Shown here: in pieces, positions 37,563 to 61,673 of the stretch
How positions within the stretch are numbered: position 1 is the stretch's first letter
Layout of the letters: every line of letters starts with the position of its first letter
Virus record (IMG/VR): IMGVR_UViG_3300004369_000002
Coordinates: 40,840-104,839 of that record
Reading direction: 5' to 3' (one strand)
DNA: 64,000 nucleotides
DNA from: a virus
The notes under the pieces: model-generated
The model's database searches: none
Seen by the model: only the letters and a program-made list of their open reading frames with translations
What the model was told of the DNA's origin: nothing
Program-made: the position numbers and the translations under genes

Positions 37563-37783
37563 GTAACGACGGCGAAAATATGGACATTGATCTCAAGGAA
37601 ATCATCAACGATATCCTTGAACAGAACAAGAATCTGACGCTGAATAACGCCATGCTTCGCACCGCCGTCAAGCAGTTGCAGGAGCAGAACCGCATTTTGG
37701 TTCAAGCGAACAAGCAAATCGAAAGGGAGACTGCGGTTCTTCTTGAAAAGAGTAGGCAGGCGAATGAGTCTGACTCTGAATGA
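37559..37783 (+). CDS. Small coiled-coil protein
   Basis: A 74-residue protein overlapping the previous stop by four bases. Residues 10-65 (DLKEIINDILEQNKNLTLNN, AVKQLQEQNRILVQANKQIE) show heptad-like leucine/isoleucine spacing, so a coiled coil is likely. It overlaps the dioxygenase gene by 20 bases. Function unknown; it may couple the fibre operon to the following enzyme genes. Confidence 0.5.
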   Translation: MSNDGENMDIDLKEIINDILEQNKNLTLNNAMLRTAVKQLQEQNRILVQANKQIERETAVLLEKSRQANESDSE

Positions 37784-38564
37784 CCTGACAGAACCAGCAC
37801 CCCCTGTTGGTCCACGAGACTGGAACGACGAAGGCGTCGTCATCATCAAAAACTTCTTTCCGGAAGACTTGATGGTTGCGTACGAGAACTGTTGGCGGGA
37901 AGCAAATAGCAAGAGACCCAACGGCTGGCCAGACCCAGTGCCCTACATGCGTCACCCGGAGTTGCGTGACATCCTTTGCTGGCAGCCACTCAACGACCTT
38001 CTGACCGACCTGATCGGTGAACCACCAGGACTTCATCTGAACCTGACCGGCTGGGTATCAACCGAACGCGACTGGCACCAAGACTCGTACCTTAACCCTC
38101 CGTGGGTGGGCGATTCGTATGCTGCCGTATGGATCGCCTTCGCCGACATTCACCCCGACTCCGGCCCTTTCCAATATGTTCCCGGATCACATCGATGGCC
38201 TCAGGTCACCCGACAAAAGATTCTTGACGTATTGGAACCCGATCAGCGCGATCACAGGTGGCCCAAATTTTCTGAACTCATTTTGACACCACTGTTTGAG
38301 CAAGAAATCATAAACCGAAACGCTGAAGTGGCGACGTATCTTCCGAAACGTGGGGACTTGCTTGTGTGGAACGGGCGCATTCTTCACCGTGGATCACGAG
38401 CAAAGGTGCGGGGGCTTGAGCGCCGTTCGTTAATTGCGCACTACTCCGGCATCCACCATCGACACGAAATGCCTGCACCCGAACAGCACCTTGGGCAAGG
38501 ATTTTACTTCCCAATCGAAACTGATCTGCAAATGTACTACGGACCCGAGGACGTTAACCACTGA
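37764..38564 (+). CDS. PhyH-family Fe(II)/2-oxoglutarate dioxygenase
   Basis: A 266-residue protein; ATG 37764 (MSLTLNDLTEPAPP) is preferred over the TTG at 37743. The cupin-type Fe(II) triad is visible: H105-x-D107 in DWHQDSYLNPPW and H208 in LHRGSRAK, with AFADIHPDSGPFQYVPGSHR being typical of phytanoyl-CoA dioxygenase-like enzymes. Arginines after H208 could bind 2-oxoglutarate. These enzymes hydroxylate small molecules, lipids, proteins or nucleobases; substrate unknown. Its stop overlaps the methyltransferase start, so the two are probably translated together. Confidence 0.8.
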   Translation: MSLTLNDLTEPAPPVGPRDWNDEGVVIIKNFFPEDLMVAYENCWREANSKRPNGWPDPVPYMRHPELRDILCWQPLNDLLTDLIGEPPGLHLNLTGWVSTERDWHQDSYLNPPWVGDSYAAVWIAFADIHPDSGPFQYVPGSHRWPQVTRQKILDVLEPDQRDHRWPKFSELILTPLFEQEIINRNAEVATYLPKRGDLLVWNGRILHRGSRAKVRGLERRSLIAHYSGIHHRHEMPAPEQHLGQGFYFPIETDLQMYYGPEDVNH

Positions 38565-39139
38565 TGATGCTTTTGAATGCAGGGTGTGGAACTCACTACG
38601 TAAAAGGTTGGGTGAACTGCGATGTGTGGGAGAGTGATACAACCAAACCCGACGTGAAAGTCACCGCCGGAGAACCGTACCCGTTCGACGATGATTACTT
38701 TGATGCGATCTACCTTGGGCACGTGTTGGAACATGTCGATTGGCGTGAAGTCCCATTGTTCCTTGATGACATGCACCGAATTGCCAAACCTGATGCTCCA
38801 ATGTTGATTGTTGGCCCAGACATCATCAAAACAATTCAACGCTGGTCGGACGGTGCCGAACCGTGGCACATGGTGATGTCCACGCTGGAACATCAGGATT
38901 TTAATTGGCAGCCCGGTCGACAAACCGAATTTTGGGATGGCGCAACACATCATTGGAATTGCCATCATGAACGGGTTTGGAACATTCTGAATGACATGGG
39001 CTTCAAGAATCTTGTCGACTACTTTGATCGGATTCCCAACTCCACTCAAATGACATCGTGGCACGATGAGACGACGGGGATCACCTGGCCTGTTGTCGCC
39101 AAATGGCATTGGCAGTTCGCCATCCACGCAACGTGCTGA
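38564..39139 (+). CDS. Class I SAM-dependent methyltransferase
   Basis: A 191-residue protein. Motif I is LLNAGCGTHYVKGWVNCD (G-x-G-type SAM loop with a following acidic residue), and motif IV-like text is FDAIYLGHVLEHVDW, as in Methyltransf_11/SAM-dependent O/C/N-methyltransferases. Residues 100-190 carry several aromatic and His residues (WHMVMSTLEHQDFNWQP). No DNA-methylase DPPY/NPPF motif, so a small-molecule or glycan substrate is more likely than DNA. Coupled to the dioxygenase by one base overlap. Confidence 0.75.
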   Translation: MMLLNAGCGTHYVKGWVNCDVWESDTTKPDVKVTAGEPYPFDDDYFDAIYLGHVLEHVDWREVPLFLDDMHRIAKPDAPMLIVGPDIIKTIQRWSDGAEPWHMVMSTLEHQDFNWQPGRQTEFWDGATHHWNCHHERVWNILNDMGFKNLVDYFDRIPNSTQMTSWHDETTGITWPVVAKWHWQFAIHATC

Positions 39140-39251
39140 TGCCTCTGGCATAGATGTCCGGACACCTGATGTACCGTCTCTGACCAGGTGTGGTTACACG
39201 GGTGTACTGTCCTTCTGGCAAGCCACCCGTCGGCTTGGGAACAGGAGTGTT

Positions 39252-39770
39252 ATGGAAATTCAATCTGGTTACGACGACAACTTTTTTCGGAAAGAAGCCG
39301 AAATAGGCCAAACGTTTTCTGAAATAGTTGCCAAATATCTCAACTACAATGGGGTCAAGTGCCGAGCAACGGAACTTGAATTCGCCAAAGACGTTGCCGA
39401 CAGAGAACGCTTCAAAACCCACGAACAAGACATCATCTTCGACCTCATGCCAGGATGCCTGGAAGTCAAAAGTCGACGCCTTCAATTTTTCCCCGACCCA
39501 GAATCGTATCCCTACGGCACTGCATTCGTCGACACGGTGTCCGGATGGGACGCAAAAGCCGTTGTCCCTCTCGGTGTCGTCCTCATCTCGCAGATGACGT
39601 CGTGCATGCTGGTAGTTCCACCGTCCAGCCAAAACCTTTGGACCGAGTACAGTTCTTACGACAGATTCAGGCGGATCCACGAAACCTGGTATCAGTGCCC
39701 CAAATCGGCATTAAAGCACATCGATCTTCTCGTGGATTTCCTGGTAAAACGCCAGGCCCTGTACTCGTAG
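39252..39770 (+). CDS. PD-(D/E)XK-like nuclease
   Basis: A 172-residue protein. ATG 39252 is chosen because CAGGAG lies eight bases upstream; the frame is open back to 39066 but that part is inside the methyltransferase gene. The core E (AEIGQTFSEIVAKYL), then D-I-I-F-D and LEVKSRRLQF give the E...D...E-x-K pattern of restriction-like endonucleases. The C-terminus is helical. Possible jobs: recombination/repair nuclease or attack on host DNA; undetermined. An inverted repeat (ACACCTG/CAGGTGT, 39162-39191) lies upstream. Confidence 0.5.
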   Translation: MEIQSGYDDNFFRKEAEIGQTFSEIVAKYLNYNGVKCRATELEFAKDVADRERFKTHEQDIIFDLMPGCLEVKSRRLQFFPDPESYPYGTAFVDTVSGWDAKAVVPLGVVLISQMTSCMLVVPPSSQNLWTEYSSYDRFRRIHETWYQCPKSALKHIDLLVDFLVKRQALYS

Positions 39771-39787
39771 CCATTCACTATGTGGAT

Positions 39788-39801
39788 CTAACGATCGTTA
39801 G
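39788..39801. promoter_or_regulatory. 14-bp perfect palindrome upstream of oxygenase
   Basis: CTAACGATCGTTAG is its own reverse complement. It ends ten bases before the oxygenase start codon and follows the nuclease stop by 17 bases. It is a plausible operator for a dimeric repressor; no other copy was noticed. Confidence 0.45.
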
Positions 39802-39811
39802 GCTAATCCCC

Positions 39812-40624
39812 ATGAAACAGGTGAATATCGAACAGCCAGCCTGGATGAAGGATCTTCATGAACGAATGCTCCCCTACCCCACCCCAGCCTCACTGGATGA
39901 ACTCTCATCCGAACCGTACACAGATCCTATATTTTCTGAGATCGATCTTTGGCTCCGAACCAGTGCAAGCCGGTTCGGAAGCGTATACGGATACGCCCAA
40001 GAACAAAATGGGGCCACAGTGCAAAACCTGTTCCCCATACAGAAGGACGCGACCGAGCAAATATCATCGTCATCAGCGGTAACGCTGGAGATGCACACGG
40101 AAACCGCATTTCATCGATACAAGCCCACAACGTTCCTTTTGTTGTGCGTCCGTGAGGACGTCAACGCAGGTACGAATATTGCAAAACTGGCCGATATTCT
40201 TCCGAAACTAGATTCGCAAACAAAAACAGCGCTCAAAAAATACGATTTCATCACCGAGATCGACGCCAGTTTCCGGTCCGGGGACTGTCCGCAACAGCCA
40301 ATGATGATGCAGGTTCTCAACGAATCCGAAACAGCGATCACTTATGATCGTGCATTAATGGTCGGCACGACACCCGAGGCAGAACGAGCATTAAGCGCTC
40401 TGTCTGACGCAATCGACGCAGTGACAACGACCATTTATCTAAACACAGGCGACCTGCTAATAACGGACAACAAACGGATTATCCACGGTCGAACGCCGTT
40501 CACTGCCCGGTTTGACGGAACGGATCGATGGTTGAAGCGTGTGATGGTGACCACGGAAAACATCCCTGGCGATCAGGTCGAATACCGCCAGGGACGTTAC
40601 CGCGTGGTGACAACACCGCTCTAA
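39812..40624 (+). CDS. AsnO/VioC-type (clavaminate synthase-like) 2-oxoglutarate oxygenase
   Basis: A 270-residue protein starting MKQVNIEQPAW; the frame is open to 39455 but overlaps the nuclease gene, so the later ATG is chosen. NLFPIQKDATEQ and LEMHTETAFHRYKPTTFLLL give the Fe ligands H95-x-E97; GDLLITDNKRIIHGRTPFTA gives H225; R239 in DGTDRWLKR is the expected 2-oxoglutarate arginine. This set is characteristic of free amino-acid beta-hydroxylases (asparagine oxygenase, arginine beta-hydroxylase). Substrate in the phage is unknown. Its stop codon overlaps that of the convergent RNR gene. Confidence 0.8.
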   Translation: MKQVNIEQPAWMKDLHERMLPYPTPASLDELSSEPYTDPIFSEIDLWLRTSASRFGSVYGYAQEQNGATVQNLFPIQKDATEQISSSSAVTLEMHTETAFHRYKPTTFLLLCVREDVNAGTNIAKLADILPKLDSQTKTALKKYDFITEIDASFRSGDCPQQPMMMQVLNESETAITYDRALMVGTTPEAERALSALSDAIDAVTTTIYLNTGDLLITDNKRIIHGRTPFTARFDGTDRWLKRVMVTTENIPGDQVEYRQGRYRVVTTPL

Positions 40625-54095: not shown

Positions 54096-54374
54096 ATCAA
54101 AAAATACACCCCCACCCCCAAAAACGAAATCATCCAACACCTCAACAACACCGAACAAACCACCATCACCTACGACAACCTAGACGAAGCCCTCATCGGC
54201 ATCGGAAGCCAACACACCAAACCCCCCATCGCCATCTACTCACACCAACTCATCATCGAAACACTCATCAAACAAGGCATGACACCCGACGAAGCCATCG
54301 AATACACCGACTACAACATCATCGGACAATGGATCGGCGACCAAACCCCCATCATCCTCTACGACCACCACTAA
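54096..54374 (+). CDS. Conserved phage small protein with apparent ATC start
   Basis: A 92-codon frame with no ATG, GTG or TTG at its beginning. AAAAAGGAA at 54081-54089 is a good Shine-Dalgarno and lies seven bases before ATC at 54096 (IKKYTPTPKNEIIQH). The C-terminal text MTPDEAIEYTDYNIIGQWIG then DQTPIILYD matches a common phage family (E-x-x-x-x-N-x-x-G-x-W-x-G-x-Q-T-P-I), so the frame is real. Either ATC is the start codon, the start was altered by mutation or base-call error, or translation starts at the internal ATG near residue 62. Confidence 0.6.
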   Translation: MKKYTPTPKNEIIQHLNNTEQTTITYDNLDEALIGIGSQHTKPPIAIYSHQLIIETLIKQGMTPDEAIEYTDYNIIGQWIGDQTPIILYDHH

Positions 54375-54380
54375 CCAATC

Positions 54381-54389
54381 AGATAAATC
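54381..54389 (+). promoter_or_regulatory. AGATAAATC motif, copy 3
   Basis: AGATAAATCCAACCAAAAC (54381-54399) shares 13 of the first 14 bases of copy 2 with one C/T change. It sits in the non-coding origin-like region. Confidence 0.4.
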
Positions 54390-54482
54390 CAACCAAAACA
54401 TCGGACAGAAAAATATGGCACAGCACCGCCGCCGGTTTTGGGGTGCGCTCCGAAAGTCCCGCAGGGGTAGGGGGGTGGGGTG

Positions 54483-54512
54483 GTCGAACGTGTGTTCGTC
54501 GAACGTGTGTTC
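54483..54512. repeat. Tandem 15-bp repeats with SOS-box-like core
   Basis: GTCGAACGTGTGTTC twice without gap. The inner CGAAC-GTGT-GTTCG is an inverted repeat; flanking T is present on the left of both and the expected A on the right is missing. Confidence 0.7.
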
Positions 54513-54619
54513 GGTTGGTTGTCCACAGGGTTTTCCACTGTTTTCACAGGGTTGGGGGGTGGTTTTGGGGTTTGTCCACAGGTTTTTGGTGTAGGTGGGG
54601 TTGCGTTTAGGCTTGTTTG

Positions 54620-54649
54620 TTGATAGGGTTGTGTTTGTTATTGTTATCT
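54620..54649 (+). promoter_or_regulatory. Candidate promoter of metallophosphoesterase gene
   Basis: TTGATA (54620-54625), an 18-base spacer and TTATCT (54644-54649), then GGAAGGAG (54659-54666) and ATG at 54673. Confidence 0.5.
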
Positions 54650-54672
54650 GATTCTTTTGGAAGGAGTTTGTT

Positions 54673-55425
54673 ATGCGTATCTTGTTTTGTGGTGACATTC
54701 ATGGGAATGCCACTCAGTTGCGTTTCGTGTACAAGACCGCCGAGGCGCATGGTTGCGAGTTGATCTGGTCGTGTGGTGACTTTGGGTATTGGCCTCACAT
54801 GGATAGGGGCCGATCGTTTTTGGACACCGTGGACGTACTGGAGGAGATGACGGGTATCCCGTTGTATTGGACTGACGGCAACCATGAGAACCACGATCTG
54901 TTAGATCGTTTGTTGTTGGAGCATGGCGATAGTGCGCCTATTGCGACGAGTGAGGGGTCGTCGTGGGTTCCTCGTGGATGTGTGGTGACCCTGGATGGGG
55001 TGACGTTCATGTCGTATGGGGGCGGGTATTCGGTGGACTGGCAACGACGCACGGAGGGGGTGTCGTGGTGGCGTCAGGAGTTGGTGGATGAGGGTCATGT
55101 GTTGGATGTGTCTGATTCACCCGTGGATGTTCTTGTGACGCATGACACGCCTTTGGGTAAGAGGTTGTCGTACAAGGATTCGATCCCGGAGTCCGTGGAT
55201 CAACGTCGAATCTTGACCGAGTTGGTGGATCGTGTTCAGCCTCGCCTCGTGTTCTCCGGCCATCATCACGTACGTGAGACGTTCCGTACTGCGACCCCTA
55301 AGGGGTGGGATGCGACTGTGCGTGTGTTGGGTCGTGATGGGATGGGTCGTGACAGTGTGTATGTGTTTGACACGAAACATTTGTTTAGGGATTCTTCTGA
55401 CATGGAGTTGACTTTTTCTGAGTGA
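54673..55425 (+). CDS. Calcineurin-like metallophosphoesterase
   Basis: A 250-residue enzyme with strong RBS GGAAGGAG. All two-metal motifs are present: GDIHGN (residues 8-13), GDFGYWP, DGNHEN, THD and GHHH, the order D-x-H / G-D / G-N-H-E / H / G-H-x-H. It hydrolyses phosphoesters (nucleotides, nucleic acid or protein phosphate); substrate not evident. Its coding strand is G/T-rich whereas genes on both sides are C/A-rich, so it may have been gained separately. Sits right beside the origin-like region. Confidence 0.85.
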   Translation: MRILFCGDIHGNATQLRFVYKTAEAHGCELIWSCGDFGYWPHMDRGRSFLDTVDVLEEMTGIPLYWTDGNHENHDLLDRLLLEHGDSAPIATSEGSSWVPRGCVVTLDGVTFMSYGGGYSVDWQRRTEGVSWWRQELVDEGHVLDVSDSPVDVLVTHDTPLGKRLSYKDSIPESVDQRRILTELVDRVQPRLVFSGHHHVRETFRTATPKGWDATVRVLGRDGMGRDSVYVFDTKHLFRDSSDMELTFSE

Positions 55426-55814: not shown

Positions 55815-56227
55815 TCGGACGAAACATCCCCCACTTCGGCCTCACCAAAGAGAGCGACTGGACAAGCACAGCGTCAGCAGTTGGCCTATTCTTCTACCGG
55901 CTATCTGTCTCTATCGACTCAGCGTTCCACTACCGGCATACAGGAGAACTTATCACCGACGACGGCGTCAACCACATCGTGTGCGACGAACTGGGCCTCA
56001 ACATCGACCAGTTCGAAGAACTGTTCGCCAAGGGAGCCAACATCATCGAACACGACGAAGATCTTGCCGAGTTCTACGAGGACTTCACTCGCCGTTGCGG
56101 ACAAATGCTCTCAGCCCTCGGATTCACAGAAGAAGAAATCGACATGATCGCCGACAAAGTCGACGAAACCGACAACACCGTCGACCTCCTCAACGAACTG
56201 TGGAACCTCCCAGAAGCCGACGCCTGA
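55811..56227 (+). CDS. Acidic hypothetical protein
   Basis: A 138-residue acidic protein (ITDDGVNHIVCDELGLNIDQ, FEELFAKGANIIEHDEDLAE, FTEEEIDMIADKVDETDNTV). Helical with many Asp/Glu; could mimic DNA, but there is no direct evidence. ATGA overlap with the upstream gene. Last gene before a 170-base non-coding stretch with small hairpins. Confidence 0.5.
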   Translation: MIGRNIPHFGLTKESDWTSTASAVGLFFYRLSVSIDSAFHYRHTGELITDDGVNHIVCDELGLNIDQFEELFAKGANIIEHDEDLAEFYEDFTRRCGQMLSALGFTEEEIDMIADKVDETDNTVDLLNELWNLPEADA

Positions 56228-58592: not shown

Positions 58593-58853
58593 ATGACCTA
58601 CTACCGCAAACCACACCCTCCGATCTACTACAAGATTCGAACAGTTGTTCGGGTCGGATTCTGGGGATCTGTCGCCGTCGGCGTCACGTCGTTCGCCTCA
58701 TGGTTCGCCCAGTTGGACGACAAGCCGGAATGTCCGATCACTCTCAACAGCGACTTCACCTACGACACCCACAGCGAGTTCGACCCAACCAAGTGTTCGG
58801 CAGGCCACAACGTCACCCTCATCGACGACCATCATTGGGGTTGGACAGACTGA
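58593..58853 (+). CDS. Small membrane protein
   Basis: An 86-residue protein starting MTYYRKPHPPIYYKIRTVVR; the frame extends upstream but the promoter position selects ATG 58593. One membrane helix (VGFWGSVAVGVTSFASWFA) is followed by an outside domain with two cysteines (ECPITLN, KCSAGHNVTL) and a His-rich end (DDHHWGWTD). An SOS-box-like CGAAC-N4-GTTCG lies in its coding sequence at 58638. Function unknown. Confidence 0.55.
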   Translation: MTYYRKPHPPIYYKIRTVVRVGFWGSVAVGVTSFASWFAQLDDKPECPITLNSDFTYDTHSEFDPTKCSAGHNVTLIDDHHWGWTD

Positions 58854-60644: not shown

Positions 60645-61673
60645 TCAGACGAGAGACAGGACTGCCTGCTGAGCCTCAATCTTTGTACGAGTCACCCAAC
60701 TGTTGTCGTCCAGCGACGCCATAGCCCGATCCTTCGGGTCGGCCTCCCGGTGGTGATCCAGGTATTCGCCGATGGCGTTGTAGATCGCCCAACCGTTGTA
60801 GCCGAAACCTCCGCCATTCTTGTCCGAATCGTAGATCGCACGAATCGTCATGTTCTGACGCTCCCGATTGTTGCGTTGACGCTCTGTCTCGCTACCTTTT
60901 TCCGGGAACACCGAGTTGAGGACCTTGTCCAACTGGCGAGACGAACGAGGCACAGACACGTTGAGCATCTGCTCCGCCATCCGCTGAAACTCCTTCGCCC
61001 AATCCGTGGAAATCTCCAACACCCGCTGAGCATCTTCGAACACCGAGTCAATGTTCTTGGTGTGGCGTGCTACGAACACCCGTTCGGCGTTGCTGAGACC
61101 GAGGCGAACTGTGTTGTTACACACCGCCCGAATGTCGGTATTGGCGTACCGGACAGGCCAGACTCCGTCGTGACCCGTGGAAACAACCAAGTAGCGGGCG
61201 ATCCGATCGTTCACGCCCGTCGGGTCAATGACCAGGGGTCCGAGGTTGATCGTCATGAAGAACCGCTTGCCGTCCAACAGGACACCAGCCGTATCGACGA
61301 CCGCATCTCCTCGTGATGCACCCACGACAGCGAGTGCTCGCTCGGCAACCTCAATGTTCTGCTTGACCGTGTATCGGGTTCCAACTGTGGCCAAACCATC
61401 GTACGAGCCGTCGTCGTTGGCTCGGATTGTTGCCCGGCTGTCTTCGATCACCACGGGAGTCCCGTCTGGGTTCCTGAGGACGTTGCCGTCGTCGTCGATA
61501 GCAACAACTTTGACAAGGCGTACCTCATAGTTGGCTTCGGCGGCTTCTAGCATCTGGTCAACTGTGGCAAGGCCAGCGAGGGGGACGCCCAGGCGATGCC
61601 AGGGTGCTCCTCCGGTGGATGCGTAGGCGAACTTGGCTGTGCCGTCCGCCTTGATTTCTAACTCGTGTGCCAT
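60645..61673 (-). CDS. DUF932 phage/plasmid-like protein
   Basis: A 342-residue protein. ATG 61673 (MAHELEIKADGTAKFAYAST) is chosen for GAGAGGAGA upstream. The order GGAPWHRLGVPL, NYEVRLVKVVAI, ATVGTRYTVKQNIEVAERAL, DTAGVLLDGKRFFMTINLGP, RYLVVSTGHDGVWPVRYANT and RAVCNNTVRLGLS is diagnostic of the DUF932/TIGR03299 family. These proteins are common in phages and plasmids; the molecular role is not established. A TTGGAT-N18-TAGTGT promoter is possible upstream. Confidence 0.85.
   Translation of the reverse strand: MAHELEIKADGTAKFAYASTGGAPWHRLGVPLAGLATVDQMLEAAEANYEVRLVKVVAIDDDGNVLRNPDGTPVVIEDSRATIRANDDGSYDGLATVGTRYTVKQNIEVAERALAVVGASRGDAVVDTAGVLLDGKRFFMTINLGPLVIDPTGVNDRIARYLVVSTGHDGVWPVRYANTDIRAVCNNTVRLGLSNAERVFVARHTKNIDSVFEDAQRVLEISTDWAKEFQRMAEQMLNVSVPRSSRQLDKVLNSVFPEKGSETERQRNNRERQNMTIRAIYDSDKNGGGFGYNGWAIYNAIGEYLDHHREADPKDRAMASLDDNSWVTRTKIEAQQAVLSLV

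Follow-up and report, generated by a model that had tools for sequence, protein, structure and literature searches.

Tandem SOS-box-like repeats beside a putative replication origin of an actinobacterial virus, candidate operators for host LexA

Two abutting SOS-box-like repeats in a noncoding region of a 104,839-bp virus record raise the question of whether the virus is tied to the DNA damage response of its host. The window, that is, the whole 64-kb stretch of DNA that was analyzed, is the right part of this record. At 54484-54513 it carries two copies of TCGAACGTGTGTTCG with a gap of 0, each matching TCGAAC-N4-GTTCGA at 15 of 16 positions. The first-pass annotation was correct in describing gapless 15-bp repeats nearly identical to the actinobacterial SOS box; the interval it gave for them (54483-54512) captures this repeat in a register shifted by one base. 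Both copies are exact CGAAC-RNNY-GTTCG matches with the core GTGT, the RNNY type found at SOS genes. Since the copies are identical, they represent one site and its duplication rather than two independent matches.

The array is found in a 298-bp gap between the end of a small open reading frame (54374) and the start of a metallophosphoesterase (MPE) gene (Table 1), in which the composition of the plus strand changes from C/A-rich to G/T-rich at about 54430. Its placement left of the DnaA boxes and about 160 bp upstream of the MPE was also as first described: a TTGTCCACA match begins 5 bp to the right of the second copy and the measured distance to the MPE start is 159 bp. The 92-codon open frame to the left (54096-54374) has a good Shine-Dalgarno sequence, AAAAAGGA, and the apparent start ATC, with no ATG, GTG or TTG there. 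The AAGTCCCG/CGGGACTT element at 54453-54465 also occurs near LexA-type arrays or strand-composition switches in unrelated actinophages (L005, L048, L029, L038, L070, L141, L267, L348, L366 and L370), in 9 of 96 cases against 55 of 1840 (p=0.004, post hoc).

Table 1. Features of the array region and further LexA-type boxes, in window positions; bits are scores with the LexA matrix described in the text.
Feature	Position	Strand	Remarks
Intergenic control region with the array	54375..54672	.	C/A-rich strand leftward, G/T-rich strand rightward
AAAGTCCCGCAGG element	54453..54465	+	Also by LexA-type arrays of L005, L048 and other phages; AAGTCCCG form at the syntenic place in L348
LexA/SOS-type box, copy 1, TCGAACGTGTGTTCG	54484..54498	.	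16-mer TCGAACGTGTGTTCGT, 21.1 bits, top-scoring site of the 105-kb record
LexA/SOS-type box, copy 2, TCGAACGTGTGTTCG	54499..54513	.	Identical to and abutting copy 1; 16-mer with final G, 18.0 bits
DnaA-box match TTGTCCACA	54519..54527	+	Exact
DnaA-box match TTGTCCACA	54572..54580	+	Exact
AT-rich stretch, possible unwinding region	about 54616-54675	.	67-70% A+T, directly before the MPE start
Metallophosphoesterase (MPE; calcineurin-like, phrog_1649)	54673..55425	+	Pfam Metallophos 8e-19; next gene after the array
Weaker LexA-type site TCGAAGAACTGTTCGC	56013..56028	.	Within an ORF; 16.7 bits
Single LexA-type box TCGAACAGTTGTTCGG	58637..58652	.	About 45 bp into a small plus-strand ORF; L348 keeps the position (ACGAACAGTTGTTCGT, 24.7 bits)
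LexA-type box ACGAACACCCGTTCGG	61072..61087	.	Within the DUF932 gene; kept in L348

Assignment of the repeats to the LexA/SOS-box-like class is well founded, as the same CGAAC-RNNY-GTTCG 14-mer is found at SOS genes of Acidimicrobiia, the copies agree with the motif tCGAAC-N4-GNNCGa obtained by ChIP for Streptomyces venezuelae LexA (PMC9380542), and tandem copies recur in many phages. When 84,980 prokaryote genomes were screened for a DnaA box together with two LexA-type boxes, two Acidimicrobiia contigs were returned, one being a lexA operator from a Ca. Microthrix MAG. Boxes with RNNY cores lie, in this MAG and an Acidimicrobiaceae MAG, upstream of recA and lexA (each in both MAGs), ruvC, uvrA and SRAP, as well as near an imuB-type polymerase gene, and a tandem pair is present at lexA itself. 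From the recA, lexA, ruvC, uvrA, imuB-type and SRAP genes of the two MAGs, 11 boxes were combined into a LexA matrix; they were chosen by consensus, and the bits measure fit to that consensus rather than LexA affinity. The matrix scan that had been proposed for the locus yielded five sites of at least 16 bits in the 105-kb record (at 54484, 54499, 56013, 58637 and 61072), led by the first TCGAACGTGTGTTCG copy, while the next best site scored 11.4. All five lie in the last 10 kb, against none in the remaining 94.8 kb. Similarly, TCGAACN4GTTCG occurs three times in the entire 104,839-bp record, each time at the right. With two mismatches to the consensus permitted, the window holds 8 matches against 4.1 expected, which is not a clear enrichment.

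The virus encodes WhiB, so its host is likely an actinobacterium. Pfam scans of the two arms of the record, which may be incomplete, detected no LexA, S24 repressor, integrase or ParA, and tblastn with LexA found none in the record. Given WhiB, and with neither LexA nor an integrase or S24 repressor detected in the virus itself, the ligand of the array is likely host LexA, with the specificity taken from other actinobacteria and the host known as an actinobacterium only. The virus also encodes PhyH- and TauD-type dioxygenases, histone-deacetylase-like and PAPS-reductase-like proteins, and Rad52 and RuvC homologues (window 37743-40624; L169/L170).

Arrays of this kind are not limited to one virus. 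IMG/VR was scanned for two CGAACN4GTTCG boxes within 30 bp, with a scrambled palindrome as control. Raw counts of tandem palindromes were discarded as evidence, as the control also returned 72 contigs; because 47 of those 72 belong to one family, the comparison was restricted to independent families. On that basis, at least 93 independent families of viruses have tandem LexA-type boxes, against 18 for the scrambled palindrome. The RNNY type, which the search pattern does not require, makes up 89% of the cores in these families and 25% in the scrambled control, and arrays with three or more copies number at least 20 against 0. In addition, 72 contigs from 34 families, 31 of them showing an RNNY core, have TTATCCACA no more than 30 bp from a box, compared to 15 contigs for the scrambled control. 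A derivation of the viral arrays from contaminating host DNA or lexA operators was rejected, since LexA homologues are almost absent from the array loci in IMG/VR; several genes flanking the arrays encode terminases, a helicase and members of other PHROG families, which also argues against host contamination. Another palindrome, GTTAGG-N2..6-CCTAAC, which resembles part of an iron-regulator box, was observed beside LexA-type arrays in 8 of 96 independent array modules (L031, L032, L034, L036, L260, L285, L150 and L157) and in 0 of 1840 background stretches (p about 3e-11); it is missing from the window.

We propose, with moderate confidence, that the repeats are two abutting operators for host LexA that would make the control region SOS-responsive and act as a "deferment" switch for a virus in which no repressor of its own was detected. 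As long as the cell is undamaged, both boxes, and perhaps also the weaker sites within 6.6 kb rightward, would be occupied by LexA dimers, which would restrain the control region, including transcription into the MPE gene. Should the DnaA boxes alongside belong to an origin, as they seem to, LexA would also restrain DnaA-dependent initiation or its priming transcription. Upon activation of RecA by DNA damage, or by infection itself, LexA would cleave itself, the boxes would empty and the region would be released. The virus would in this way borrow the damage sensor of the host in place of a repressor of its own. In healthy cells its cycle may be postponed or slowed. The target of LexA may be transcription towards the MPE gene or initiation at the DnaA boxes, which are not separable here; gating of replication by LexA is possible.

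The first-pass annotation had placed the repeats beside an origin and suggested that replication or this promoter is wired to the damage response. The promoter found no support: a scan limited to the sigma-70 class gave no match in 54300-54750 and none overlapping the boxes, and the promoter reading of the array was set aside on that ground. The origin fared better. Two exact TTGTCCACA boxes lie 44 bp apart (other array phages have three to nine DnaA boxes), an AT-rich stretch adjoins them as expected of a DnaA-box origin, strand composition switches locally, and arrays accompany DnaA-box clusters in other phages. Against this, there is no genome-scale turn in GC skew at the array; the cumulative skew falls on through the site. 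An origin beside the array is plausible on these local features. In six other cases the boxes are interleaved with four to seven DnaA boxes (L064, L070, L106, L119, L141 and L142). Among arrays not selected for DnaA boxes, 4 of 70 have at least two strict DnaA boxes against 5 of 1340 elsewhere on the same contigs (p=6e-4), and at least three are found in 3 of 70 array modules against 0 of 1340. Arrays beside DnaA-box clusters are a real, small and significant minority. With only 4 of 70 arrays having two or more strict boxes, the link to an origin is not general, and DnaA boxes were rejected as a general companion of the arrays.

A direct block is possible, though unlikely: LexA bound beside the DnaA boxes would prevent DnaA loading or unwinding independently of transcription. 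The 5-bp distance between the second box and the DnaA box would suit such a block, as would the enrichment of modules with three or more strict DnaA boxes and the interleaved loci L064, L141, L142 and L106, for which three to nine DnaA boxes are counted. However, the region is a putative rather than a demonstrated origin, most arrays are without DnaA boxes, and at the syntenic place in L348, the closest relative, both kinds of box are absent.

Cultured isolates carry such arrays as well. In the Gordonia phages GTE5, Lollipop1437, Patio, Commandaria and NatB6, an intergenic region between divergent genes holds two to four tandem boxes; GTE5 and GRU1 have been described as lytic (PMC4524720). 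In Mycobacterium omegaviruses such as Redno2 and Optimus, tandem TCGAAC-NNNN-GTGCGA boxes, which fit the S. venezuelae motif, are found in the terminal 110 bp. At the omegavirus right end (L367 1-117 and L372 1-90), two to three tandem TCGAACRTGTGTGCGA repeats and TCGAACATACTTTCGA lie no further than 120 bp from the end of the genome, and omegavirus-like ends occur, unannotated, in about 48 sequenced mycobacteriophage records. An MPE operon as the conserved context of the array was rejected, as the MPE gene of the cultured omegaviruses is internal to a long operon with no array upstream.

The position of the isolates' arrays near a genome end is compatible with a role as a LexA sink, in which the boxes would titrate host LexA as viral copies build up, switching on host repair and nucleotide functions without damage, and proximity to an origin would provide early dosage only. 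Arrays of two to eight boxes without a recognizable promoter, and with no viral SOS gene adjoining, are also in keeping with titration. We consider it unlikely nonetheless: with two boxes per genome, a LexA pool of typical size could be titrated only at high copy number, the arrays lie in intergenic control regions rather than just anywhere, and single boxes also recur.

Relatives of the virus were found via the DUF932 protein, a search with primase and helicase giving nothing useful. The right end of the record is colinear with the closest of them, L348, whose DUF932 protein is 85% identical. The syntenic region of L348 retains the strand-composition switch and AAGTCCCG, while the LexA-type boxes, the DnaA boxes and the MPE gene are absent; another gene is present instead of the MPE, and other tandem repeats, TCGATGTTCCTG, occupy the syntenic place. 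In L005, whose MPE is 45% identical, there are DnaA boxes, and upstream of the MPE lie two copies weakened by degenerate left half-sites, TCGTACGTGTGTTCG and GTGCGTGTGTTCG; L001 has one box upstream of its MPE. Conservation in related phages, on which the SOS reading had been made to depend, is accordingly mixed, with the array absent at the syntenic place in L348 yet traceable upstream of the MPE in L005 and L001. Absent in one relative, weakened in another and single in the third, the array is a variable cassette that is not fixed in the lineage. The idea that the coding boxes at 58637 and 61072 are protected in L348 was also considered and set aside, being suggestive for 58637 only, and protein constraint could explain both. 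At 58637, all half-site codons are unchanged relative to L348 and synonymous changes are confined to outside the half-sites; conservation of the 61072 box may reflect the protein sequence alone.

These relatives bear on the idea that the repeats are iterons, 15-bp direct repeats bound by a virus-encoded replication or regulatory protein, with an accidental resemblance to SOS boxes. Abutting repeats with DnaA boxes and an AT-rich stretch do resemble an iteron origin, different tandem repeats are found at the syntenic place in L348, and in L005, L028 and L055 CGTGTGTTCG is constant while the left half varies. We regard this as improbable, however, because it is the RNNY-core palindrome rather than the direct repeat that is conserved across unrelated phages, spacings range from 12 to 44 bp, host SOS genes carry the same boxes, the direct repeats are not kept in L348, and the next gene is the MPE, with no adjoining initiator gene. 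Chance look-alike palindromes in a G+C-richer stretch, one of them duplicated, would account for the identical copies by a single duplication, for the three of five sites in coding sequence and for the absence of the array in L348, but are very unlikely given five sites of at least 16 bits against the 0.05-0.17 expected in the last 10 kb (Markov models of that 10 kb, order 1-4), the RNNY core and the independent recurrence in other phages.

Control of the region by host LexA would have precedents. In the Bacillus thuringiensis tectivirus GIL01, host LexA controls the P1 promoter at dinBox1/dinBox1b; like the present virus, GIL01 has two neighboring sites of the CGAAC-N4-GTTCG class, and it is without a CI-type repressor (PMC4551915), as the present virus, whose use of LexA is predicted from sequence, may also be. 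In GIL01 the boxes closely follow a mapped promoter start and gp7 is needed, whereas here the boxes abut, no promoter was found and DnaA boxes adjoin, in a large tailed virus of actinobacteria for which lysogeny is not known. Two Streptomyces tectiviruses scanned for LexA sites had none (PMC6950372). Paired LexA boxes, with LexA binding shown in vitro, are also known from the Bacillus subtilis prophage SPbeta (yolC/yolD and yorB), which differs in being integrated and in having its boxes at individual promoters (PMC8270828). The closest concept is the "lytic deferment" of CtrA phages of Alphaproteobacteria, where sites for a host master regulator are likewise dense in one intergenic region and evolved independently in several phages; there, however, the regulator is CtrA and the cue the cell cycle rather than LexA and DNA damage, and binding and regulation are experimental (PMC9437464). 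As cited in the same work, host LexA controls antirepressor or lytic genes in CTXphi, coliphage 186 and SPC32H (PMC9437464). These phages also place a decision under host LexA, which in the present case is a prediction from the boxes. They involve single promoters of temperate phages and are not known to have tandem arrays beside DnaA boxes.

Host LexA control was thus already known in phages that are temperate or plasmid-like and have their boxes at single promoters; new here are tandem abutting arrays, some of them among DnaA boxes, in viruses in which no lysogeny genes were detected, and their repeated independent occurrence in actinophages. No account of such arrays in actinophages was found in the literature searched, which had incomplete coverage. 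As a tentative generalization, many virulent actinophages, including this one, might use tandem boxes for host LexA, some interleaved with DnaA boxes, to hold replication or early expression until the SOS response, a lytic deferment governed by DNA damage without lysogeny genes. Since arrays are present in phages of Mycobacterium smegmatis mc2 155 and Gordonia terrae 3612, the proposal is directly testable in culture. If true, virulent phages would read the DNA damage state of their host, with arrays in dozens of independent families and in phages described as lytic (GTE5 and GRU1; PMC4524720).
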